A stretch of 64,000 bases of DNA. Origin: Owenia fusiformis. Its lineage: Eukaryota > Annelida > Polychaeta > Sabellida > Oweniidae. Under the pieces are notes generated by a model. It made no database searches, was not told where the DNA came from, and was given only the letters and a program-made list of their open reading frames with translations. Each line of letters opens with the position of its first letter. Position 1 is the stretch's first letter. Below, piece by piece: positions 4,301 to 50,500 of the stretch. The DNA is taken from assembly GCA_903813345.2 (NCBI GenBank), contig CAIIXF020000006.1, positions 31,474,024 to 31,538,023 of the forward strand. Reading direction: 5' to 3'. The translations under genes were made by a program, and so were the position numbers.

Positions 4301-7300
4301 CGGTTCCATTCGTAGTACGTCCAGCTCGTCGTTAGTACGTTGTCACTCGTTCTAATTGTAGAAGGTGACGACCACGAGAACATTTTGAGCATTGTCTAAG
4401 TTCTAGAGGACCTACCCGTTCGAGTACGTTCGATGAAGTTTGTTAATAGATCCCAAACGGTTCTTAGTAGGTCCAGTCCGTTCGTACACAGTTGAAGCCC
4501 GTTTTTGAGAACGTAGTGAGAACTAGTTTGGTGTGATAGTAGGGTAATTGAAAATGTTGCTAATAATTTTGTTGCATCTTTCATTGATTCATTGTTCAAT
4601 GATTGCATCAATGAAAGAAGGCCGTATTATAATTAACCCTACTCAGATGCACATGCATGAATGGATGGATTGACCAATAATTTTACAGATGAAATTCAAT
4701 TAACAAGTACAGACTTATTTCTGCAAATATTTGTCATCCTATGATGGTGAAGTTTAGTAAATGTATCCTATCTTGTGGTAAATGCTAATGTTTTACAATA
4801 ACATGAACAAATGATTGATAAAAAACAGGTGAACTTACTCTAATTGCACAAGGTCTCCAAACTGGAACTGTCCCAATGTGTCTACACCAGTGGCCATATC
4901 TGCACACAATTGCAAATCTCTTGGAAGAACCTTCAGCTGTAAACATAACATAAGCATAACTTGTGATATCAAAACTTTGTATTATCACATTATATTAAAA
5001 CTTGCTGTTCTTTAGAGAATACAATTTTAGAGTAAAATATCTGAAATGTTAATGTTCATGTTCAAATGTTTTTGGCAATCATTTATAATCAGATTTATAC
5101 TGGCCTTCAAACAGTATCAACAATTGGAGATGTATTAAAGATGGGCATGAAAAAAAGTCGCATGTCTGTGATTTCAAGATTTATCTTAATTTTTATGGAT
5201 TTCTTTCAATTTGACATATCTTTTTTGGCATTGATAGTAAAAGACACTGTTTTTCATGAACGACCCAAGCTAAACACAGCCCAACACTTTGCAAAGCATG
5301 TCTATGACAGTTCATACCTCGTGCATAGTAAGATCTGAGAATAGTACAACCATACTATCTTCCACCCTGACAATGAGGCCTGTGTCTCCCTCATATCTGC
5401 CAGCTATCACCTTCACATGGTCTCCCATCTTGAAGAACTTCTTCAACTCATGTGCTGGGAACTCTAGTGGATCCTGAAACACAACACTGATATCTATGAT
5501 TGAATTCTAGTTATCCCTTACTGTTGTATCTATTTTCTCTAATTCATTCACCTTTCATCTTCCAATGAAACTAAAAGAGACCCAACAGGAAATATCAAAT
5601 ATGTGTAACATAGATAAAAAAAAGTTCTTACTTTGAGATCTTCGTGTTTTGGCATCATGATGATCTTGTTGCCATCGACAGAAATGACTTTACCCTGGAG
5701 GTTGATCAACTCCCCCTCAGCCACCTCAACATTGTCCCCTGGGATGAAGCTATGGGTCACTTCTCCAGAGCCACCAGACCTTGGGATCACTGACAAGGTT
5801 AAGGAGAATATTCCCTTTGTCTTAAATGTCATGTAACATCATGCATGGGAAATTATGTCTCCAAGGGAATAACTGCAGAATCTTAACTTCTAAACTTTTC
5901 AACAAACATGCAGAAACAATTTGACTTTTTATGCATTATTTCAGAACATTTGTCATTTTCATCAATATAACAAAAGGGTTCAAGACTTCTAGTCGCAACA
6001 GCATTAAAAAAATCTGGTGAAATTTATAATAAGGATACGTTCCATCTCCATGTTGTCTGGCTGATCCTCAAATTTTTCTAGCTCTGATAGTGTTGGTTTA
6101 ACCCCCTCAGCCACCTAAAGCAAGAAAACTACACATTAATATCAGTAACTCATTGAAAAATTATTACTAATACTCCTGAACATTTTCTCTAATTTTGTAG
6201 GAGTCAAATATGTAAAATGTAAGATCAAATAAGTAAATCGTTGAAAACTTACAATGGCAGACATGACAAAATTCTTGTAGAGGAAGCCTTTACGTGAGTA
6301 CTTGTTGCCTTCAAAGATGAGGAAGTCACCATCAGATGACACTTCACCCCCAATGGCTCTGATGGAGTCAACGTCAAACAACTTCTGGGCAGGCCTGCGT
6401 TTTCTCTTACGTTTCTCAGCATCCTAAAATAATTCTTGATTATGATGAAGGGTTCAAAGTAAGCATTGCATGCAAATCATTAAGTCAACAAATATACAGC
6501 AAGCAACTTTTTTCTTATTTGTCATAAAAGATCTTTTTAATTGTTGCCCCCATAACATTCATGATATACAAGCTGCTATTTCATAATTCTCTTTTGCCTT
6601 AATGCATAATGCAGTGATGCGTCCTTCTCTATTTGATACACTGTTTTATTGCACAACAGATTTGCACTTACCCCAGTTCCCCTAAGGGCCCCTCTCATCC
6701 GAGTATAGTCAATTCTGGGAATGGTCTTCAGGAACACAATGTTCTGTACAGGATCCACATAGTCGACCTTGAAAATAAAAAATCATCATTTGTGTAAAGA
6801 TTCAAATTAACATTGAATGGTATGTGAAAAATATATCAAATTGAAATTATTTTGAAAAAGTTTGTTTCAGCTCTGCTTTATTCGAGATATGAATTTTCTC
6901 TTGTCATATTTTATACTGTTAAATCGGAGCCTGAAGTGTTGATCTAACCTGTGCAAGATCATCTTTGTATATGCCCCTCTTGAGCCTAACCCAGGCCTTT
7001 GGCTTTAGGTTCACTGTGTCCTTTACCACTCTCATCACATCTGTCATCTCCTTCACTGGAACCATCTGACAAACAACAACATGATTATAGAATAGATGAG
7101 CTAAACAAATTCACAATTTAATTACTTACTAAATAGTGCAGATTTGGATGACACAAAATGATTAATTTTTTGGGAAACTCATATTTCTCAAATCTTTTTA
7201 AATCAATCATCCATTATAAAGTCATATGAGATATGAAGAGAAATAACACTCTCTAGGTATGTTTTATGCAGTAACACATGTTCCAGTAGTACTATAACTA

Positions 7301-15165: not shown

Positions 15166-15241
15166 ACCTCTTGACTACCCAGAATGACGAGATTTCTTGT
15201 CACCTCAGAAATGACCTTGAAACCCAGAGGGACAAGAAACT
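15166..15241. repeat. Dispersed repeat, copy 2
   Basis: TTGACTACCCAGAATGACGA and AAATGACCTTGAAACCCAGA match the copy at 10836-10915. It abuts the LINE fragment on its right. Confidence 0.55.
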
Positions 15242-15428
15242 AAATCAAGGATGTTATTTTGTCTAGTTGGTTCCTTGACTAGTTGGGTTAGGCCATGATC
15301 ATCAGTTATTGTAATCATCTTCTCATTAAGATCATTAGGATATTGAGAATTAGGCCTTATACTTCCATTCTCCCAATCAATGTCTGGTAAGTTGAAGTCT
15401 CCGAATAGAAAGATGGTTACATCAAGGA
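15236..15428 (-). pseudogene. LINE (non-LTR retrotransposon) endonuclease fragment
   Basis: Read on the minus strand this gives DVTIFLFGDFNLPDIDW, then HGLTQLVKEPTR and NILDLV. The GDFN motif and the following P-D-I-D-W and H-G-L-x-Q-x-V-x-x-P-T-R pattern identify the APE-type endonuclease of a non-LTR retrotransposon, which nicks target DNA. Only about 60 residues survive. The 5' side is cut by the hAT-like element at 15429, and past 16290 I cannot recognise the continuation. It is a dead fragment. Confidence 0.75.
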
Positions 15429-16282
15429 CACCCCCATAAATGTGGGGTTATTTTGAGGATTTTTAATATTTAGGACATTTGTTACTCAAAATAACCCCAC
15501 AAAGTTAAGGCTTTGATTCTTTGGGGGTTTGCTAAACAATAGCATACATATAGAATTTGTACTAATATTATTAGAATTTACTCACCTTTTTATGTTTTTC
15601 GTATCGACAAGACATTAATCTTCAACATGCTACCAAATATAGCCCTCTAAGTGTTGTATTCATTCTTGTAATGACGATTTAATACGGATAGCAGATATTT
15701 CTAGAAAAGTTTTTCAAATTTCATGCGCAGTCGATATTTTTTATCTAAATAACAAACTTCGCGTAAATACGAAATCCAAAAGTAAAAATGGAGGGAAATT
15801 TTGAAAATGATTTTCACCTTCCGGTGTATTAAAAGGACTGTCAACCTCAAGTTTGACCGCTGTAACGTCTACGGCCTTTGTTTTCCTGAACTTAGGCATA
15901 AGCAATAATTTTGTTATTAATTTGACAGGTGATTTCGTTTGGCACTGTTAAGTTTCCCATCTACCACATAATTCCTCCCAAAATGCAACGCGCGAAAATG
16001 GCCAAAATTTGAATAGATTTCGAGAGTCAAATATTACAGCAAATTGTTCCAGTTATAAAGCATTGTTTCTACTGATCGATCGCTCCTTACATTGGAAAAA
16101 GAATCTTCTTCACAGAAGAGAAGAAAAAGGTAAGGAAACTGCCGATATTGTCAGAACTTGAATCTTCAAATCATGTGAAAAAAAACGAAAAGAATCAAAG
16201 CCTTAAATTTGTGGGGTTATTTTGAGAAACAAATGTCCGAAATATCAAAAAAACTCAAAATAACCCCACATGTATGGGGGTA
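15429..16282. mobile_element. hAT-like non-autonomous element, 8-bp target duplication
   Basis: ATCAAGGA occurs directly at 15421-15428 and 16283-16290. Between them are inverted ends (CACCCCCATA / TACCCCCATA) extending about 100 bp and including TGTGGGGTTATTTTGAG and its internal inverted copy. An 8-bp duplication fits hAT. No transposase is present in the 854 bp. It sits inside the LINE fragment, so it is the younger insertion. Confidence 0.85.
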
Positions 16283-24000: not shown

Positions 24001-27000
24001 TGATTGATATGTTTGAGTTTCATTTCAGATGCCCCTATGCCAAGTGGAGGGGACAGTGCAGCAGGGTCTGACAATGATGATGAGAAACAATCAAGGAGAC
24101 GCAAGAGGAGGAAGAAGAAAAAGAACAAAGAGAAAGATGACAAGGAACATAAGGTAAGTTAGATGTTAGTCATTACACAATTGCCAACGAAATTTTAATT
24201 TTTTATTTATTATTAGGATGGGGTTCAGTTATCAACTGTCTTGGAAAAACGAAGTTATTTTTGTTATGATTTGACATACCTTTGTCTAAGATAAATTTTT
24301 AAATGTTGATTTGTCTTTCACAAAAATATTATCAACACTATTTACAGCGAAACCATCATTTAATCCCTCCACTTAACAAAACTAACTTTCTTATTTTATG
24401 TTTGTTATTAATGTTGTTCATCAACTTGACATTTTGACCATAATTGACCAATATTTTAGTAATTCTGCATAGAGAATCAGAAATTATGTTGTCATCATAA
24501 TTGCAGAAAAGCAGCAGGCATAGCAAGAAGCGGCCCAGATATGTTGATCACGATCACATAGACAATGACTTTGCTGCTCTTGATGCCCAGCAACCTTGGG
24601 GCAACAAACGTTCCAAGAGATCTTCACCACCAGGTCCCTATGACAGCCCTGATGCCTCCCCAGAGAGAGATGCCACAACTTCAAAGTCCTATGGGTAAGC
24701 TAGATGTAGTCATGGTACAAAGGGAGTTCTTGTAATGATGTCAACTTGTGTGTATCAGGAAGGTGGCTTTATCTTTAAGTTGTTCAATAACTGTCTTAGT
24801 TGTATTACATGTACTTTTATTGATAATGAAAACTGTATCTTAGTCATTGAGAAATAGGTGCTATGTACAGAGCCCATAGGGTATTAAAATAAAATAGACA
24901 CAAACATTTTATTTTCAGTGGAGGAGGTCTTTATGGTTCTGGATACAAGAGTCCACCAGGACCATATGATAGTCCATATCAGAGTCCACCTGGTCCTTAT
25001 GACAGTCCATCTGACACTGAAGCAAATGGGTAAGTAATATCAGACTGCCAGTGACATAGGCTACAAGTCTTTGCCAAAATTTACTATTACATGAATATAT
25101 TATAAATACTATAATTCAGTGGTGAGTGTTGCTTGTAGGTATGATGATTCTCGGGGTAAGCGTAGTATGTTAAGCATGGTGAATGACAACTACTTTGATC
25201 CCAGCGTAGCTGCATCTGAGAAACAAGCACCAAGTGGAATGTATGAGAAAAAACAGCGTGGAGGCAAGAAGCAACCCTCACAGAAGAAAATTGAGAAACG
25301 ACGGCAATATTTAGAGAGGCAGAACCAAAGGAGAGGGGGAGATGGTGGCAATACTGGCAAAATTGGCATATGTAAATTTTACCTTGAAGGAAATTGCCAA
25401 AAGGTTAGAGCTTTTAAATGAGAAGTTGTAAGGACATGAGTGGTTCTTAGAGCATGTTGAGCATTCAATTTTTCAAAATCTTTCTTGATACTACTAGAAT
25501 CCTTTTTTTCCATATATAGCCACATTTGTAATTTTTGATTTTCTGCCTTTAAATAATTGCACCATTTAATAAGAAATTGTGGATCTTTTGAGATGTAGAA
25601 TCGGAAAGTACACATTGTTAGATTACAATGGATTGCAATACACATTGTTAGATTACAATGGATTGCAGTACTCATTGTTAGATTATAATGCATTGCAGTA
25701 CACATTGTTAGATAACAAAGGATTGCAATACACATTGTTAGATTACAATGGATTGCAGTACTCATTGTTAGATTACAATGGATTGGAGTACACATTGTTA
25801 GATTACAATGAATTGCAGTACACATTGTTAGATTACAATGGATTGCAGTACACATTGTTAGATTACAATGGATTGCAGTACACATTGTTAGATAACAATG
25901 GATTGCAGTACACATTGTTAGATTACAATGGATTGCAAATGTTTTTTTCTCCAATGTGACCGATTCTAATGAAACAACAGATCCATGCTTTGTTTTAAGC
26001 ATACTTTTTGTAAACCTAACAAAGCATGCATAATTATTATTACCTATAATAGTAGTATTATTCAGGCATTGTTTATTGCATTTTAGCTCACATTATGAGC
26101 TATTTTAACTCCCCTTTCAGTATATTGTGAATAGTGTCCGTGACATTTTACAGTGTGACTGGAATGCATCGTTTTGTGTATTGAAACAATAGCGAATAGC
26201 AGCTAAGATTGCTCTCCATGTCAGTGTGGGCTAAGTACCCGTGGCACTATTTATTTCATTGTTCCATCAACTGAATCCATTTTAGATAGGCGCAAGAGTA
26301 CTGAAAATTGTAGATATGATTACTAAAATATGTTTCCCTTTTTTTCACGCTTACTCTACACAGGGCAACCACTGCAACATGAATCATGTACAACAGGTAT
26401 ATTTGATTTTATGTCCACTCTTTGTAACATACTACACCTAGGACTCTCAGCTGTGTAGTGCTTATGATGTTCTAGCTCTATCATGTTACAAAGAGTGTTA
26501 GTGGGAGATTTAACAATAATCCTTTGTAAAAAAGTTTGCTGGTTTTAGTTTGTTGTTTTTGCATGAACCAATGCTAACATGGGTGTAGTCAGGCAAGAGG
26601 TATGTGAGGCAGCCTCACCAAAATTTAACAGAAATTCTCATTTGTTCAGACATTTTTTCGCCCAAAAATTTGAAAATGAAGTCATAAGATCTTCACATTT
26701 TCTTTGCCTCATTTTTATCCTGACTTACACCCCTGGTTGTATTTAATTTGTGTTATTGAAGATGCTAACATATTCAATGCATTTTTTCAAATTTGCAAAA
26801 GGTGTTAACACATCGTTAAGACTGCCAACTTTTTGGTGACACTAATTTCAAGTCAATCCGAAGATTACTTTGTTAAGTTTCTGATTTTTGCCGATATCTG
26901 TAACCAACTAACCATGGCAACAAGCAAATGATTTCTAATATTTGTTGCAGAGTATGAGAAGTCTTGGTCTCAAAGATTGACTTGAAGTTCAACGAGTGAC

Positions 27001-30000
27001 CACCTTTTGTATCATTAAATGCTATGTTTAGTTTTATCAACTTGGCCAGATTTTCATAGATATTCCTAATTTTTTGAGTTCATAAATCTATTTGTAGTAT
27101 AATGATAATTCAGGATATCCATGGCTACATACAACAATGAATTTAATAGTTAAAGTAATAACCCCCAGTCTGCTACAATCCATAAATAGTGCTTCATATT
27201 TCCCCATAAGCCATAAGCACATTGTAGATGTTAAAGATATAACTATTATTTCCTTGTTCTGCTCTTCCTTCTTCAATAATCATATTTAATTATTCTAGGG
27301 GGATGAGTGCCAGTTTGACCACAATGGTGAGCTGATCAAGAGACCAGAATTGTGCAAGTTCTACATCACCAGTATTTGTCAGAAGGGGGAGAATTGTGTC
27401 TACATGCATGATATCCTTTTTAAAACACATGACAAGAGGTCTTGTTGTGTCAAGCTGAGAGCATTTTCAAAGTTAACAAGCATCTTAGAGAGTTTTTCGT
27501 GACTTAAAACAAAATACAATTGGTTTATATTTTCAATTTGTGTTTCTCTTTTGAATTTGAAGGAATTAGATAAAATTTGATTTACAAATACAAATTACAA
27601 ATAATAAGTGACTCATATTTTTCTTAACTCACTGGTACGTGATTATCCATGCAAGTACTTCTTCTTGGAAGACAAGCGCTGTTTTGCTGGGGATGACTGT
27701 AAATTCTCCCATGAGCCACTAAATGACGTCACTGGACCAATTATAGAAAAGATTCGCCAGGAAATTGATGAGGAAAGAAAGGCGAAAAAGAAAAATAGTT
27801 TGCTAGGTAAAAGTATGTTCAATTTCATTAACACTACTGACATTTTTGGAAGTGGGAGTATATATTGATAGATGATTACTAATAACTACTACTAGAACAC
27901 ATTTTATAGCATTCAAATACAAATGCACTGATATCAGATTAAAAGAGTGACATTGGTAATTTTGATATCTGCAACTAGTTGATTTCCTACTCATATGCAT
28001 GGTGATATCGATTTATTATGTCACCACCGTCCACCAAGAAGTAATTTTGACTGGCTCACATTTTGCCATTTGTGACAGATATTACCTTTTTGTAACAATT
28101 TGCAGTAACATGACATTTTCAAATTAATCCATTGATCAGTTTGTTTGGAATGCTGACACATACTGTAAAGTAGACAAGATTTGAGACAAAGTATAGAAAA
28201 TCTTAAAATCCAAAATGGCTGCCTTAATATTCATCCAACATGGCCAAACCAAGCTGTTCTTCGTTTCCATGCACCCCTTAAAAACACTCTTAACATTTTG
28301 AAATCAGTCCATTTGCTTGGAAAACCCAAAAATTTTGAAGGCCACCTTTGTGTGATCACAAAAGAACACTAAGTGTATAATTATGACAAAATATCTCAAA
28401 GTGTCACCTTAGATAGTGTTTTAAAAAGTTTTGTGTTGTTTCAGGATCTCCTCCGAGACTATCAGAGGAACTTCAAGCTAAACTTGAGGCACAGAAGAAG
28501 ATTCCTTCTCTGTTTGATATCCAAACATTTGCTCCTGGTACCAGTCCCCACAAACCCATGACAGCTATGAACAACCAATCGGGTGCAGGAGACAGTGGCA
28601 ATATGGGTGGCAATATGGGTGGCAGTGGTGGCAATATGGGTGGCAATAATATGGCACAAATGGGAAATAGAATGCTCAGGTAGGATACGTTGAAAATACA
28701 TTAAATTAGGGGACAAATATATGGAAAAAAGGTCATCGGCTAATTGCCATATTAATATACAGAGTGACCCAAAAACGACAATCAATTTGATGTTTTGTGT
28801 ACTTTCTCCAAATCATTAAAAATGTAGCTTCATAAAAATGTATGATCCATCATTGCCAATATTTGAGTTATTTTTTATAGACATCACACAATGCTATATC
28901 TAGTATTTTGTATAATTGATACAAAAAAGTTCTCAAATAATGTAGGCAATTAATTAGCTTCAAAGATTCTCAATGTCAAGAAAGTCACCTTTGTTAATCA
29001 TTTATTTCACCTAAATCTTAAGGTTCATTTGTTATTTTTTTTTTTAATTTTAGGCCAAATTTCTATGCTGATATGAGTTCACCAGCCCGACCAGGAGGTC
29101 CTATGGGGCCCCCAGGAATGGGAATGTCCCCAATGCGTCCTAATGTTCCCAATCCCCTGGGTATGATGATGAATAGTCCCTTGGGTGCTGCATTGACCAT
29201 GGCAGCAGCTGCCCAGGCCCAGGGCTTCTATAACAACTTCTACAACCAGGGGGGCCAGCAGCAAAGTGGCCAACAGATGGCACCATCTGAACAAACAAAT
29301 GAGGAGGCTGGTGGAGGTACCCCTGGTATGAAGCTAATTATTGTACTTCCAAGCTTTGCGTTTAAAAGTGTTAACAGTTTTTCTCACAAATCTTTGTTCA
29401 TCCTTTCATGGCAAAATCCACATTGAAGATACCCTTTAGAATTCTGGGATCTGTAGATATATTGAAAATGTGCTTCAGAAAATCCTATAAAAAGATCCAA
29501 AGTCAATCAGATACCATTGTAATCGGATTTTTAACTATCTTTGCCCAGAGGAAAATTGAAGACATTTATCGGTGTTGTTTTAGAAAACACTGAGGACAAA
29601 GCAGACTTTGATATCCCAACAAACCTCCCTCAGACTCAGAAGGACCTCCTTATGCGTATCCAGAATCAACAGAAGTCACCCAATCAGGAGAAGCAAGAAA
29701 ACAATGAAAGCAAAGGTATTGGGAAACAGATTGATTTTTGTAGTCAGGAATGACAGTATTTTAACCTATGTTTGAGAACAATTTCTTTGTCAGCTATTAA
29801 TACTTAGCTTTAAATGTAATTTCAGATGAGAATGATGATAACTGGTATTCAAGTGATGAGGACGCAGCATCGAAACCAAAACTTGCAGATGTCTTAAAAA
29901 ATTTAGCACATAATGCACCAACGAAGGAATCTAAAGAGGCTCCCATGTCCCAGATGTCCAACCAAGCCAACTCAACCCAGGGTGCTAATCAATCTCACCT

Positions 30001-41503: not shown

Positions 41504-44500
41504 CTGGAAAATCCAAAATATTCATGTATTTTCTCAGTCAGTTAGTTTTAGTAGCAGAGAGAGTGGTCATTGGAATTGCTGTAGATGTTGGTTGATTTCT
41601 AACAGGAGGAGAGTCTGCCTCTTCATCCTCCGAGTTTTCTGGGCTTCCATCCTGCAAATCAAATTAAACCAACACCTGTTATCATTTTTATTCATACATA
41701 CTTTCAGCAACATTCGTGCAAATTTAGCTCTTAAATAAGTCATTGTTATATTGACAACTTGCAAATGTCTTCATGTTATGCTATTTTCTGGTTTAAAACT
41801 AGAAAAACAGCAACTCCACGGAGTAGCAAATCCCACCGAACGGCAGTTGAGTTACCAAAGATTACGAAAATGAAAATGAAAAATGGCAGCCATTCTGAAG
41901 ATCAGCCGCCATCTTAACATTTTTTTCTCGAACAGAGCTACTGTGTTTCTAGGCATCAGCATATAAAATTTGAACCAAATCTGTTCACTGGTATTTGACT
42001 TATCAAAGATTACGTTTTTTCTTATGAAAAATGGCTACCATTTTGAAATTCAGCCGCCATCTTGAAAATATTTTCACGAACAGATCCACCGTGTCCCTAG
42101 GAATCATCATATAAAAAATGAGCCAAATCTGTTCACTGGTATTTGAGTTATCAAAGATTACGTTTTTTACGAAAAATGGCGTCCATTTTGAAATTCAGCC
42201 GCCATCTTGAAAATTCTTTCTCGAACAGATCTCCTTTGTCCCTAGGCATCATCATATAAAATTTGAGCCAAATCCGTTCACTGGTATTTGAGTTATCAAA
42301 GATTACCTTTTTTCACAAAAATGGCCGCCATATTGAATTTCAAGCCGCCAACTTGAAAATTCTTTCTTGAACAGATCTATTGTGTCCCTCGGCATTATCA
42401 TATAAAATTTGAGCCAAATCCGTTCACTGGTATTTGAGTTATCAAAGATTACCTTTTTTACGAAAAATGGCTGCCATTTTGAATATCAAGCTGCCATCTT
42501 GAAAATTCTTTATTGAACAGATCTATTGTGTCCCTAGGCATTATCATATAAAATTTGAGCCAAATCTGTTCACTGGTATTTGAGTTATCAAAGATTAAGT
42601 TTTTTTACGAAAAATGGCCGCCATTTTGAAATCTAGAATCTAAAATTTTTACTCGAACATATCTACTGTGTCTCTAGGCATCAGCATATAAAATTTGAAC
42701 CAAATCCGCAAACTAGTATTTGAGTTATTAAAGATATTGAGTTATTAAAGATTACATTTTTTACGAAAAATGTTGGCCATTTTGAATTCAGTGGCCATAT
42801 TGAAAATTCCTTCTCGAGTAGAGGTCCTACACCCATAAGGCATAAGCCTATAAAATTTGAATCAAATCCGTGAAACGGTATTTGAGTTATCGCCCGGACA
42901 AACAGACGGATGGACGGACGAACGGACGGATGGACGGCTTTCCTATATCCCTCTCGAACTTCGTTCGGTGGGATAATTAAGCATGAAGAAATGAGTGGAT
43001 TACTTAAATTATTTTCTGAAAGCCTCCTTCTTGCATCTAGTTTTAGTCAAATTGATATGAGCTGAGGGCAATTTTGTTATTAAGAAATTTGGAATCATGC
43101 CTTTTTGAACATTTTGTTTGGAGATGGCACCAAGGTCTTATATTATTTACTAAAAGCAGACAAGGTTACAAGTACTTTCAAACTTTTTGTAGATTTAGTG
43201 TTTCAGAATCAACTTTGAGAATTTATAAACAAATGAGCATAAACATTTTTATCCCATACTTGGACGTGTTACAGGTACATAAAGCTGGTTTGTAAAAACT
43301 TATATTTTCATCAGTGGGCAGATATAGCTTTACGTCCCGCTCCGAGCGGGCAGATATAGTATATCTACCCGCTACGTCATGATCGCCGCTCGCATATTTG
43401 TTCATAATTTGTAACGTTCGCGTAATGACTGTAAACGACAATGGAGATAACACAGACAATTGGGATCTGTTTGATGGTTTAAAAAATGGAAGGAGCATCC
43501 ACTTAAAAAATGCAAGAACATAAATGTGGGAACATTTAAGAGAACAGAAAAATCCGCCCACGGCCAAGAAAACAAAACTGGACATGAATATTCTAGAATA
43601 TTTCCACGATTGAACAATGTGAACCAGATGACCAAGATTGGTATGGGATAAACATATTATCCTATAGTCGGTTCAGGATATTGGGATTATCCCGAGGCAA
43701 ATATGATATATTTGCCCGAGGGCCGCAGGGATATAGGATATAGGATATCCCGATAAAATTTGAACCAAATCCGCAAACTAGTATTTGAGTTATTAAAGAT
43801 TACATTTTTTACGAAAAATGTTGGCCATTTTGAATTCAGTGGCCATATTGAAAATTCCTTCTCGAGCAGAGGTCCTACACCCAGAAGGCATAAGCCTATA
43901 AAGTTTGAATCAAATCCGTGAAACGGTATTTGAGTTATCGCCCGGACAAACAGACGGATGGATGGACGGACGAACGGACGGACGGACGGACTGCTTTCCT
44001 ATATCCCTCTCGAACTTCGTTCGGTGGGATAATTAAGCATGAAGAAATGAGTGGATTACTTAAATTATTTTCTGAAAGCCTCCTTCTTGCATCTAGTTTT
44101 AGTCAAATTGATATGAGCTGAGGGCAATTTTGTTATTAAGAAATTTGGAATCATGCCTTTTTGAACATTTTGTTTGGAGATGGCACCAAGGTCTTATATT
44201 ATTTACTAAAAGCAGACAAGGTTACAAGTACTTTCAAACTTTTTGTAGATTTAGTGTTTCAGAATCAACTTTGAGAATTTATAAACAAATGAGCATACAC
44301 ATTTTTATCCCATACTTGGACGTGTTACAGGTACATAAAGCCGGTTTGTAAAAACTTATATTTTCATCAGCGGGCAGATAAAGCTTTACGTCCCGCTCCG
44401 AGCGGGCAGATATAGTATATCTGCCCGCTACGTCATGATCGGCGCTCGCATATTTGTTCATAATTTGTAACGTTCGCGTAATGACTGTAAACGACAATGG

Positions 44501-47500
44501 AGATAACACAGACAATCGGGATCTGTTTGATGGTTTAAAAAATGGAAGGAGCATCCACTTAAAAAATTCGAGAACATAAATGTGGGAATATTTAAGAGAA
44601 CGGAAAAATCCGCCCACGGCCAAGAAAACAAAACTGGACATGAATATTCTAGAATATTTCCACGATTGAACAATGTGAACCAGATGACCAAGATTGGTAT
44701 GGGATAAACATGTTGGCCAATATAATATATTTTCCCTCGGGACCTGCGGCCCTCGGGCAAATATATCATATTAGCCTCGGGATAATCCCAATATCCTGAA
44801 CCTCATATAGGATAATCTCTATGTATTTCATACCTACTGAGGTTCTAGGTACATAACGAGTGGGAATATGTAGTGTGTATCCATCCCGGGTCCCGCTCCT
44901 GTGAATTTTTTTTCACAATTTTATTTTCAATTTTTTTTTTTCAAAATTGTTTTTAAAATTTAGTCAAATATTTTTTTTTCAATTTTTTTTCAAAATTATT
45001 TTTCACATTTTCTTTCAATTTTTTCAAAATTTCTTTTTTTCAAATTTTTTGAAAATCTCGCAAACTTTAAGACCAAACAAATGCCTAGTAAGTAAGTAAG
45101 TATGTTTTGGAATTTTGGATCTTTATAAGGTATGATGTACCTAGAACTTCAGTAGGTATGAAATACATCTGTTATGTACGGTCGTTTTGGATACAGGGTT
45201 TATCCCGCGGGAAATATGTATATATTTCCCTATCCAAAACCTCCCAGTACATAACCCTTTAAACTTTTTTGCATGTCAGATTAAGTCAGTTATTATGTCA
45301 TAATAACATTGATTAGCCCATACATCTACATGTATTTTAGACATGTGTTTATTGATAATGCTTTATTTCCCTAAGTGGGACGTTGCATAACATTTATTCC
45401 ACTGGGAAAGATACAAGTTTGTTTTGTTATCAAATTTTTCCATTATTAAGACTAATGTATAACATAGCTCTGGTACCATTATATTACAGAGAGCTCCAAC
45501 AAATCCATTTGCCACCTAATTGATGTATAACATAGCTCTGGTACCAAAATATAACAGAGAGCTCCAATAAACCCATTTGCCACCTAATTGATGTATAACA
45601 TAGATCTGGTACCATTATACAGTGCGTATCAAAAAAACCACAACAGATTGTTATCTTGGAAAAGCACAAAACCAGTGATAACAGCATTGATTTCATTCAA
45701 TGCACTATAAAGCCATGTGTCTCCTCTTTATAATGATATATCATTCATTGATATTTGATCATGGTTGGGCGAGTAATCATTCCATTTGCAAAGTGGGCCA
45801 AAATCAGTTTCGGGCCAAGTTATAAACATTGCAAAAGTCAGTGTACGGAGCCCGATGCAATATTGGACGACTGCTGACTGCATCCTTTTAATTCAATGTA
45901 CCAAAAAGCCAAATTACTCCTCTTTGCAATGGAATATCATTCATTCACAGGGAGTCATCTATGGCCGAATAATCATTAATTTTGCAAAGTGGGGCAAAAA
46001 TCAGCTCGGACCCAAGTTTAAAACATTGCAAAAGTCAGTACAAGGGGCATAGGGGCTATTAGAAGAAGGTGTGACAGGTATGGCATAGACAGAAAAGTGT
46101 TCATACTCATACTCTTGCAAGAATACATCCTAATATCCCTTCAAATTGCCACCACTTCCTTGCACATATAGATGCGCTCATCTGTCCACGTCATGCATGG
46201 TTCAGCCCTGAATCATGTGTGGGTTAAAGCAAAGAAAAGCAGCCCATGGGCAAATCTTTCTCGAGGTTTTGCAATATCTGGTGGAGGAATTGTAAGCACA
46301 GATGCTCCTGAGATAGCTCCAAAAGAAAAAGTCACAACAATTCAAGTCAGGGGAACTTCCATTGGCACTTAGCCCTTGCACTGATTTTTTCAATATCTAA
46401 AACTTGGTGCAGAGCCGATTTTGACCCACTGTGCAAATGGAAGGATGTCTCACCCAACCATTACCAAATGTGAATGAATGACATATCATTGCAAAGAGGA
46501 GAGACATGGCTTTTTGGTACATTAAATGAAATTGATGTAGTCATCACTAGTTTTGTGATTTTACGAGATAACTACTTGTTGCATTTTTTTGATACGCCCT
46601 GTATTACAGAGAGCTCCAACAAACCCATTTGCCACCTAATTGATGTATAACATAGCCCTGGTACCATAATATTACAGAGAGCCCCAACAAATCCATTTGT
46701 CACCTAATTGATGTATTACATAGATCTGGTACTATTATATTACAGAGAGCTCCAACAACCCATTTGCCACCTAATTGATGTATTACATAGATCTGGTACT
46801 ATTATATTACAGAGAGCTCCAACAAACCCATTTGCCACCTAATTGATGTATTACATAGATCTGGTACTATTATATTACAGAGAGCTCCAACAAACCCATT
46901 TGCCACCTAATTGATGTATAACATAGCCCTGGTACCATGATATTACAGAGAGCCCCAACAAATCCATTTGTCACCTAATTGATGTATTACATAGATCTGG
47001 TACTATTATATTACAGAGAGCTCCAACAAACCCATTTGCCACCTAATTGATGTATTACATAGATCTGGTACTATTATATTACAGAGAGCTCCAACAAACC
47101 CATTTGCCACCTAATTGATGTATTACATAGATCTGGTACTATTATATTACAGAGAGCTCCAACAAACCCATTTGCCACCTAATTGATGTATTACATAGAT
47201 CTGGTACTATTATATTACAGAGAGCTCCAACAAACCCATTTGCCACCTAATTGATGTATAACATAGCCCTGGTACCATGATATTACAGAGAGCCCCAACA
47301 AATCCATTTGTCACCTAATTGATGTATTACATAGATCTGGTACTATTATATTACAGAGAGCTCCAACAAACCCATTTGCCACCTAATTGATGTATTACAT
47401 AGATCTGGTACTATTATATTACAGAGAGCTCCAACAAACCCATTTGCCACCTAATTGATGTATTACATAGATCTGGTACTATTATATTACAGAGAGCTCC

Positions 47501-50500
47501 AACAAACCCATTTGCCACCTAATTGATGTATTACATAGATCTGGTACTATTATATTACAGAGAGCTCCAACAAATCCATTTGTCACCTAATTGATGTATT
47601 ACATAGATCTGGTACTATTATATTACAGAGAGCTCCAACAAACCCATTTGCCACCTAATTGATGTATTACATAGATCTGGTACTATTATATTACAGAGAG
47701 CTCCAACAAACCCATTTGCCACCTAATTGATGTATAACATAGCCCTGGTACCATGATATTACAGAGAGCCCCAACAAATCCATTTGTCACCTAATTGATG
47801 TATTACATAGATCTGGTACTATTATATTACAGAGAGCTCCAACAAACCCATTTGCCACCTAATTGATGTATTACATAGATCTGGTACTATTATATTACAG
47901 AGAGCTCCAACAAACCCATTTGCCACCTAATTGATGTATTACATAGATCTGGTACTATTATATTACAGAGAGCTCCAACAAACCCATTTGCCACCTAATT
48001 GATGTAACTTACATGTAGATTGGCATATGCTCCATCCTCATCAGGAGGGCGTGGCTTGCACTTGCCACAACAGAAGTTGCAGCAACAACAGAGACAGCAA
48101 CAACAGTAGCAACCAGTTATAATGCCACAGAATATGAACAAGCCCTGCAAAACAAGAAATAACACTACACCAATACATGTATATTATTACACAAGTGCAA
48201 GCAAGTGGACCTCTGTATGTATGTGAAGTAGGAAGACACCTCAAAAGACAATTATTTCAAGTAGAGATAATGAATATGAAAAATACAGAAAATGAATGTG
48301 ACTTTTACGCATAGACAAGATGATTAGATTTAGTAATATATCTTTACTGAGTAAGATCTGCTTCCCTCTTCCCTTTCACTTAATTTTGCCATCAGTGTTT
48401 AAGAAAGCATCTGGTCAATTTACCTTAAACAATAGCCACAACACAATGAGCCCCTATACATGTGGCTATACCCACTGTACTTTCTGACAGCTTACCTTAC
48501 ACCAGCCGCTAGTTAGGACAAAGTAAGTATTGACATTCTCCTCTCCAAATTGCTCAGCAACATAGAGTCCCAGAGAACCATATCTGTCATATATACCTCT
48601 CTTAGTTGTATCACTCAAGACAGCATGTGCATGGTTGATCTCTTGGAACTGAAATAGATTCAAATATGTAATACTTCAATGAAAAGAAACAGTGGGTGCT
48701 CAGCTCACATTTGAAATTAAATCATCTGAATTTATGTATAATGTGCAGCAAAGCTGTGGCCTTTTGTAATTTAGTGAGTTTCAGACATGTTAATTTTTGG
48801 AAAATAACATGGCAGAGCAGAATCAAAATACTAGAAAAACAGCAACTCCACGGAGTAGCAAATCCCACCGAACAAAACATGTTTTGATAAATGCCGCCCA
48901 TATAAAATTTGACCCAAATCCATCCACTGGTATTTGAATTATCAAAGATTGTGTTTTTATGAAAAATGGTTGCCATTTTGAAATTCAACTGTCATCTTTA
49001 GATTTCTTCTTTTCATCTTGAAAATGTCTTTTTGAGCAGAACCTCTTTGTCTCTAGGCATCAGCATATAGAATTTGAACCAAATCGATCAACTGGTATTT
49101 GAGTTATCAAAGGTAACGTTCTTTTATGAAAAATGTCGGCCATTTTGAAATTTAGCTGCCATCTTGAAAATCCCTTCTCGAACAGAGCTCCTATGTCCCT
49201 AGGCATCAGCATGTAAAATTTGAAACAAATCCATTCAATGGTATTTCAGTTAACGTTTTTTTACGAAAAATGGCCACCATTTTGAAATATGGTGGCCATC
49301 TTGAAAATGTCTTCTTGAGCAAGGCTCTTTTGTATCCAGGCAGCAGCATATAAAATTTGATCCAAATCCATTCAATGGTATTTGAGTTATCAAAGATAAC
49401 GTTTTTTTTAACGAAAAATGGCCGCCATTTTATGGTGGCCATCTTGAAAATGTCTTCTTCAGCAAGGCTCCCTTGTACCCAGGCAACAGCATATATAATT
49501 TGAACCAAATCCATCCAGTAGTATTTGAGTTATGAAAGATTATATTTTTTCCGAAAAATGGCCGCCATTTTGAATTTAGTGGCCATATCGAAAATTCCTT
49601 CTCGAGCAGAGGTCCTACACATATAAGGCATAAGCCTATAAAATTTGAATGAAATCCGTCAACTGGTATTTGAGTTATTGCCCGGACACACGAACGGACG
49701 GACGGACGGACGGACGGACGAACGGACGGACGGACGAACGGACGGACGGCTTTTCTATATCCCCCTCGAACTTCGTTCGGTGGGATAATAAGAGGCCACA
49801 GATATGATAGCTGAACTACAAAACAAACTAAAATATACAAAAGTACATGGATAAATGTTTCTATTTCTACATATATACTGTTTCATATACTGTCCTTTGA
49901 TTGCTTATTTTTTAAATTCAAAGTACTTGCAAACATTTAAAATTTTACTTTAGCTGGGCAGATCAATGCCAACAAATTACATGCAAGTCTTAAACCAAAG
50001 TTAAAATAGGAATCTTCAAGGTATAAGTGTTTCAATGTAACAAGAAAACTACAGTTTATTTTTATACATGATTCAGAATCCTTTTATTTTTTAACAACTG
50101 GTAGTTATGCATGGTTGTCAGGATGGTTCAGAGAATATGAAATCAGAATATTACTTTTCAAAGAATTTAAAATGAATAACTTACTTTTTCTTTTGCTTCC
50201 TGGTCTGGATTTTTGTCTGGATGATATTTTAATGCTAGCTGAAATTAGAATAAAACATAAAATAACTGTGCTTGCTTTTTTTATTAAATGAATTTAAAAT
50301 ACAAAAATAAATTGATGTAAGATTACTGTACATGTAATATACATTGTGTAGATCAGCTAATTATACTCCAACTCCTTAGAGATCTCAATTGAATAATGAA
50401 TGCATAAATTCAATCAAGGAAGCCAGCCGATTTCAATGATGGGAATTAGTGCATAAATATAAGCCATTACTGATCACATAGTCAGACACAATTGTTTGAT

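Follow-up and report, generated by a model that had tools for sequence, protein, structure and literature searches.

The window analysed here, 64,000 nt of genomic DNA from the annelid Owenia fusiformis, carries on its plus strand a ZC3H4-like gene whose product has tandem zinc fingers of the Cys-Cys-Cys-His (CCCH) type. Finger 1 is divided between two exons, here called exon A and exon B, and the intron between them contains a 33-nt segment that could serve as a cassette exon. The features of the locus were as follows, with positions counted from the first base of the window.

25139–25403, plus strand: exon A of the ZC3H4-like gene; its final residues, CKFYLEGNCQK, form the first half of finger 1, and it ends in phase 0.
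25404–27298, plus strand: phase-0 intron of 1895 nt, which splits finger 1 if the candidate exon is skipped.
26321–26363, plus strand: branch-like TACTAA and pyrimidine tract, leading to the CACAG acceptor (score 5.3) of the candidate exon.
26364–26396, plus strand: candidate cassette exon GNHCNMNHVQQ, 33 nt, phase 0 on both sides, a putative alternative second half of finger 1.
26397–26402, plus strand: donor GTATAT of the candidate exon, score 2.2.
26416–26497, plus strand: hairpin after the candidate donor, with 29-nt arms that are 83% complementary.
27299–27410, plus strand: exon B, in which GDECQFDH, the ordinary second half of finger 1, is followed by finger 2.
27330–27331, plus strand: in-frame AG inside exon B, the acceptor needed for a 33-nt swap, giving a new start at 27332.
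27411–27638, plus strand: U12-type AT-AC intron, lying between fingers 2 and 3.
27639–27805, plus strand: opening part of the following exon, carrying finger 3; the right end was placed by eye.

The first-pass annotation of this DNA had placed a cut in finger 1 after its second Cys, and the phase-0 intron at 25404–27298 was read directly at that point. Exon A stops at 25403 with GGA AAT TGC CAA AAG, followed by intron sequence beginning gttaga, and exon B begins after ttctag with GGG GAT GAG TGC and is translated as GDECQFDHNGELIKRPELCKFYITSICQKGENCVYMH, plus one base. Exon B contains finger 2 up to the His of that finger. When exons A and B and the exon at 27639 were joined, the product carried three tandem CCCH fingers with the linker of the family. 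Fingers 2 and 3 of this product matched human ZC3H4 (KIAA1064, PDB 2cqe) with an E value of 8.7e-23 over query residues 22–90, and the order of fingers, linker and MHGD(F/Y)PCK agreed with 2cqe over this part. In Pfam, the joined protein scored 49.4 bits with PF22623 (KIAA1064-like; cut-off 27) and matched PF00642 on three stretches. Because of the ZC3H4/2cqe match and the PF22623 hit, the form without the candidate exon is, judged by its sequence, an ordinary ZC3H4-family protein, and the claim that skipping restores the family order was borne out.

The genome searched comprised 498 Mb in 525 contigs, with the window on contig C6; for O. fusiformis, bulk RNA-seq through development has been reported (PMC9977687). 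A protein search of it with the product of this gene returned 10 matches, of which both strong ones were this same gene; the next best (E 0.0056) looked CPSF4-like by eye. No further copy or retrocopy of the gene in which a splice form might be visible was found, the DNA of exon B having one match in the genome in a search that skips very common words. The intron between fingers 2 and 3 showed U12-type signals, namely the donor ATATCCTTTTT, the branch sequence TTCTTAAC at 27621 and an AC end; ATATCCTTT and TTCTTAAC each occurred once on the plus strand of the window. The joined protein aligned with human ZC3H4 through the AT-AC intron junction, and a literature search combining ZC3H4 with U12-type introns gave no match.

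The candidate exon reads acacag, GGC AAC CAC TGC AAC ATG AAT CAT GTA CAA CAG, gtatat, and phase 0 on both of its sides was confirmed by this reading. TACTAA at 26321 was the sole copy on the plus strand of the intron. With splice scores calculated from approximate weights, the acceptor at 5.3 fell in the top 0.56% of 3363 AG sites on the plus strand (exon B, 1.8; exon A, 1.1), and the donor at 2.2 in the top 3.7% of 3183 GT sites (exon A, 2.7). Of the strong splice signals that had been proposed, the pyrimidine tract and the acceptor stood, and the donor was passable only. An alternative exon could well combine a strong acceptor with an intermediate donor, but the combination is no proof of one. 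Usable 3' and 5' splice sites thus flank a segment whose presence and absence both preserve the frame, as in a cassette exon. SRRM4-type neural microexons have a UGC motif near the acceptor on the upstream side and a length of at most 27 nt; here there were 0 TGC in the 100 nt upstream, and the length was 33 nt.

A position of the candidate exon inside a repeat was rejected, a 171-nt stretch having one match in the genome under the same skipping of very common words. The same intron holds a minisatellite with a 30-nt period at 25547–25997 on the plus strand, with 11 overlapping copies in register. A known RNA family near the exon was likewise rejected: the two RAGATH-15 matches, both in the minisatellite, scored 16.1 and 15.1 against a gathering score of 199.5.

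Joining exon A to the candidate exon gives C-x7-C-x5-C-x3-H, with spacing identical to that of the join with exon B. CCCH fingers span C-x4-15-C-x4-6-C-x3-H, and finger 1 of the included form, by reading, falls within this range. Retention of the exon had been claimed to add a second C-x3-H, and the new Cys and His do stand in C-x5-C-x3-H register. In the included form, PF18345 aligned finger 1 to the new half (residues 12–30). Between the finger 1 His and the first Cys of finger 2, the linker would measure 10 residues on skipping and 21 on inclusion.

With moderate confidence, and from the sequence features above, we interpret 26364–26396 as a real in-frame cassette exon of the ZC3H4-like gene that would detune its RNA binding. 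The exon would be spliced into a part of the transcripts, presumably under regulation. Skipping would yield the ordinary three-finger protein; on inclusion, the Cys and His of the new half would close finger 1, and GDECQFDH would therefore be displaced into a longer linker with its spare Cys and His kept. With Met in place of an aromatic residue and altered finger spacing, RNA would therefore probably be held less firmly or with a shifted preference; loss of the aromatic and a lengthened linker point to weakening no less than to re-targeting. A more specific form of this proposal, in which the duplicate half-finger is splice-controlled, both halves vie for a single zinc site on inclusion, and the form with detuned grip and longer finger spacing is switched according to tissue or life stage, is tentative and on balance doubtful.

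Several observations weigh against a functional exon. The candidate is known here from the genomic sequence of a single genome, and position +5 of its donor is not G. Taken by itself, the new finger scored 24.7 with PF18345 and 23.3 with PF00642, versus 36.2 and 31.4, respectively, for the ordinary finger 1, and it passed one curated Pfam cut-off where the ordinary finger passed three; part of the new-finger score stems from the shared first half. It was over the cut-off of PF00642 (20.5) and under those of PF18345 (29), PF14608 (18.5 vs 25.8) and PF18044 (19 vs 24.6). The aromatic residue of C-x-F-x-H stacks on RNA bases, and the new half carries Met at this position (CNMNH); of 10 other half fingers in the comparison, 9 have Phe or Tyr there. 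Inclusion also lowered PF22623 from 49.4 to 36.1 and would burden a conserved domain with a surplus C-x3-H. Finally, all of the chance tests were post hoc, with a motif modelled on the feature itself, and many other patterns could have been picked.

The most serious alternative is that the segment is an intronic half-finger look-alike arising by chance, unspliced or spliced as rare noise only. Phase-0 open segments of 9–120 nt with an acceptor score of at least 5.3 and a donor score of at least 2.2 numbered two on both strands of the window, the candidate included. At relaxed limits (1.0 and 2.2, respectively) 20 were found, five on the plus and 15 on the minus strand; several of them looked exon-like by eye, and one proved to belong to SPT5. 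A half-finger segment was defined as AG, two to four codons, Cys, three codons and His, with the frame staying open up to an in-frame GT no more than 90 nt away. The window contained 18 such segments on both strands, three of them being the candidate with different donors, and both splice scores were at least 0 in two, the candidate and DNMCTTSH on the minus strand, for which both scores were likewise above 0. In 20 Mb of sequence simulated at order 2 and trained on the window, 1057 half-finger segments arose, of which three had an acceptor of at least 1.0 and a donor of at least 2.2, corresponding to 2.8e-4 per 1895 nt, or about 3e-4 per intron. Only one of these three had the exact three-codon spacing, and it neither began with GG nor reached an acceptor score of 5.3.

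A strict DNA pattern (YAG, Gly, Asn or Asp, x, Cys, x3, His) occurred 64 times on both strands of the genome. The majority of these places are probably chance, because a backward-read control gave 49. The candidate and exon B are two of the 64 and lie 935 bases apart; the remaining 62 correspond to about 1.2e-4 per intron for a single strand when no splice requirement is imposed. Among the 64, a half-finger stop was found in 12, an acceptor of at least 1.0 in 31, an acceptor of at least 5.3 in three and a donor of at least 2.2 in three. Both relaxed scores were passed by the candidate and by L035, one of the other 62, so that another chance-like place also has fair splice scores. Exon B, whose status as an exon is certain, does not pass this splice filter on account of its AT donor; the filter therefore also misses real exons, a further point against the reading as an exon. 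Two other strict-pattern places (L032 and L060) looked like CCCH halves by eye. The chance-like majority of pattern places, the minus-strand segment, L035, the donor without G at +5 and the Met at the aromatic position all favour the chance explanation; the rates of about 3e-4 and 1.2e-4 per intron, and a location in the one intron of finger 1 in the correct phase, speak against it. We consider chance unlikely, with a weight that is far from negligible.

Decay of a half-finger exon that was formerly used or duplicated, and is now unused, would account for the similarity to the exon B half at the protein level together with a weakened finger. Against the codons of GDECQFDH, the candidate agreed in 3/8 first, 8/8 second and 1/8 third positions, or 12/24 bases overall; over the last three codons, agreement was 0, 1 and 1 of 3 at first, second and third positions, respectively. 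The observed similarity was reached in 0.5% of random-residue trials with Cys and His fixed. In register, the flanks of the two segments agreed in 21/60 bases upstream and 12/60 downstream, with no clear trace of duplication. Old coding relatives would show a codon pattern of this kind, and so would convergence on a CCCH half; on these sequences a recent copy is excluded. The third codon positions have drifted and the second are intact, and the frame, the Cys, the His and both splice sites are kept; a relic is improbable, because at least some of these features ought to have been lost in that span under neutral decay.

If the exon were constitutive, every transcript of this species would contain it and build finger 1 from the new half; this would agree with an acceptor that outscores that of exon B. 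The skip form, however, has the finger order and linker standard for the family, and the included form fared worse in Pfam, making constitutive use slightly less credible still than a relic.

The first-pass annotation had also proposed that the two halves are swapped, and this part was not supported. An in-frame AG exactly 33 nt into exon B means that GNHCNMNHVQQ could replace GDECQFDHNGE with length and frame kept, but exon B can hardly be omitted as a whole, because finger 2 up to its His also sits there. One stretch replacing the other, as in a mutually exclusive pair, was not what the locus offers. A true swap, with the candidate exon joined to the inner acceptor at 27332, is very improbable, because that acceptor scores -8.3 and 88% of the 3363 plus-strand AG sites score equal or better.

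A stem had been noted just after the donor of the candidate exon, and it does exist, with arms at 26416–26444 and 26469–26497. Its fold had a z score of -3.3, and 2/200 shuffles were equally stable. It begins 19 nt past the first intron base and leaves the donor uncovered. No Rfam family was reached by the hairpin, and a 15-nt piece of its arm occurred four times in the genome, two of them at the hairpin itself. An origin as a mobile element was rejected, a 106-nt stretch having one genome match at E ≤0.001 in the search that skips very common words.

The candidate exon would set this gene apart from ZC3H4 (KIAA1064) by adding a second C-x3-H half to finger 1. Among the listed titles and abstract openings on ZC3H4 isoforms or microexons, CCCH mutually exclusive exons, zinc-finger microexons, WT1 KTS forms, tandem exon duplication and the finger spacing of TTP, none described such an exon; the match for ZC3H4 with microexon concerns circular RNAs in lung fibrosis. 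In WT1, the +/-KTS isoforms differ at the zinc fingers by a tiny in-frame change in splicing, and binding is altered by it. The present case resembles WT1 in this respect and differs in that WT1 has C2H2 fingers and a three-residue linker change, whereas here a metal-binding half is offered again. In MBNL, according to the available part of the source, the linker encoded by exon 3 sets the spacing of RNA-binding zinc-finger pairs, and its loss lowers affinity (PMC13044900); on that account both exons govern finger spacing, but that of MBNL lies between finger pairs and not within a finger. Tandem duplicated exon substitutions are described, in the portion available, as mutually exclusive, with key residues kept and changes mostly conservative (PMC9741552). 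As far as that portion goes, the likeness consists in homologous stretches from neighbouring exons with key residues kept, and the difference in that exon B exceeds a half finger and is without a good inner acceptor.

Human ZC3H4 restricts non-coding transcription, as stated in the available part of one report (PMC8137146), and a regulatory meaning for the ZC3H4-like gene studied here is conjecture. If the exon is real, natural switching by splicing within finger 1 would offer a test of the role of this finger in a ZC3H4-type factor, and alternative splicing would be acting on half of a metal-binding module, not on a whole domain or a linker. Relatives among other contigs were sought and rejected: of four pattern-matching stretches in prokaryotic contigs, none was a relative, and one locus of 15 residues in viral contigs (L007), which overlaps a 1009-aa open reading frame (ORF) in another frame, was taken as chance.

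Elsewhere in the window, an SPT5 gene lies on the minus strand, at 1536–1598 and in pieces up to about 12750 (KOWx_SPT5, E 8.5e-09); the minus-strand pieces at 6672–6767 and 6949–7065 looked SPT5-like by eye and had 0 Pfam matches. A retrotransposon-endonuclease-like fragment was found at 15208–15447 on the minus strand (Exo_endo_phos_2, 25.9 bits, under the cut-off of 27.4). The minus strand at 42681–44802 carries an open stretch in two similar copies, with ORFs at 43223–43672 and 44279–44770 whose translations are mostly common to both; a Pfam search with the latter ORF gave no match. An exon-like piece at 50185–50238 on the minus strand resembled a DnaJ domain by eye.

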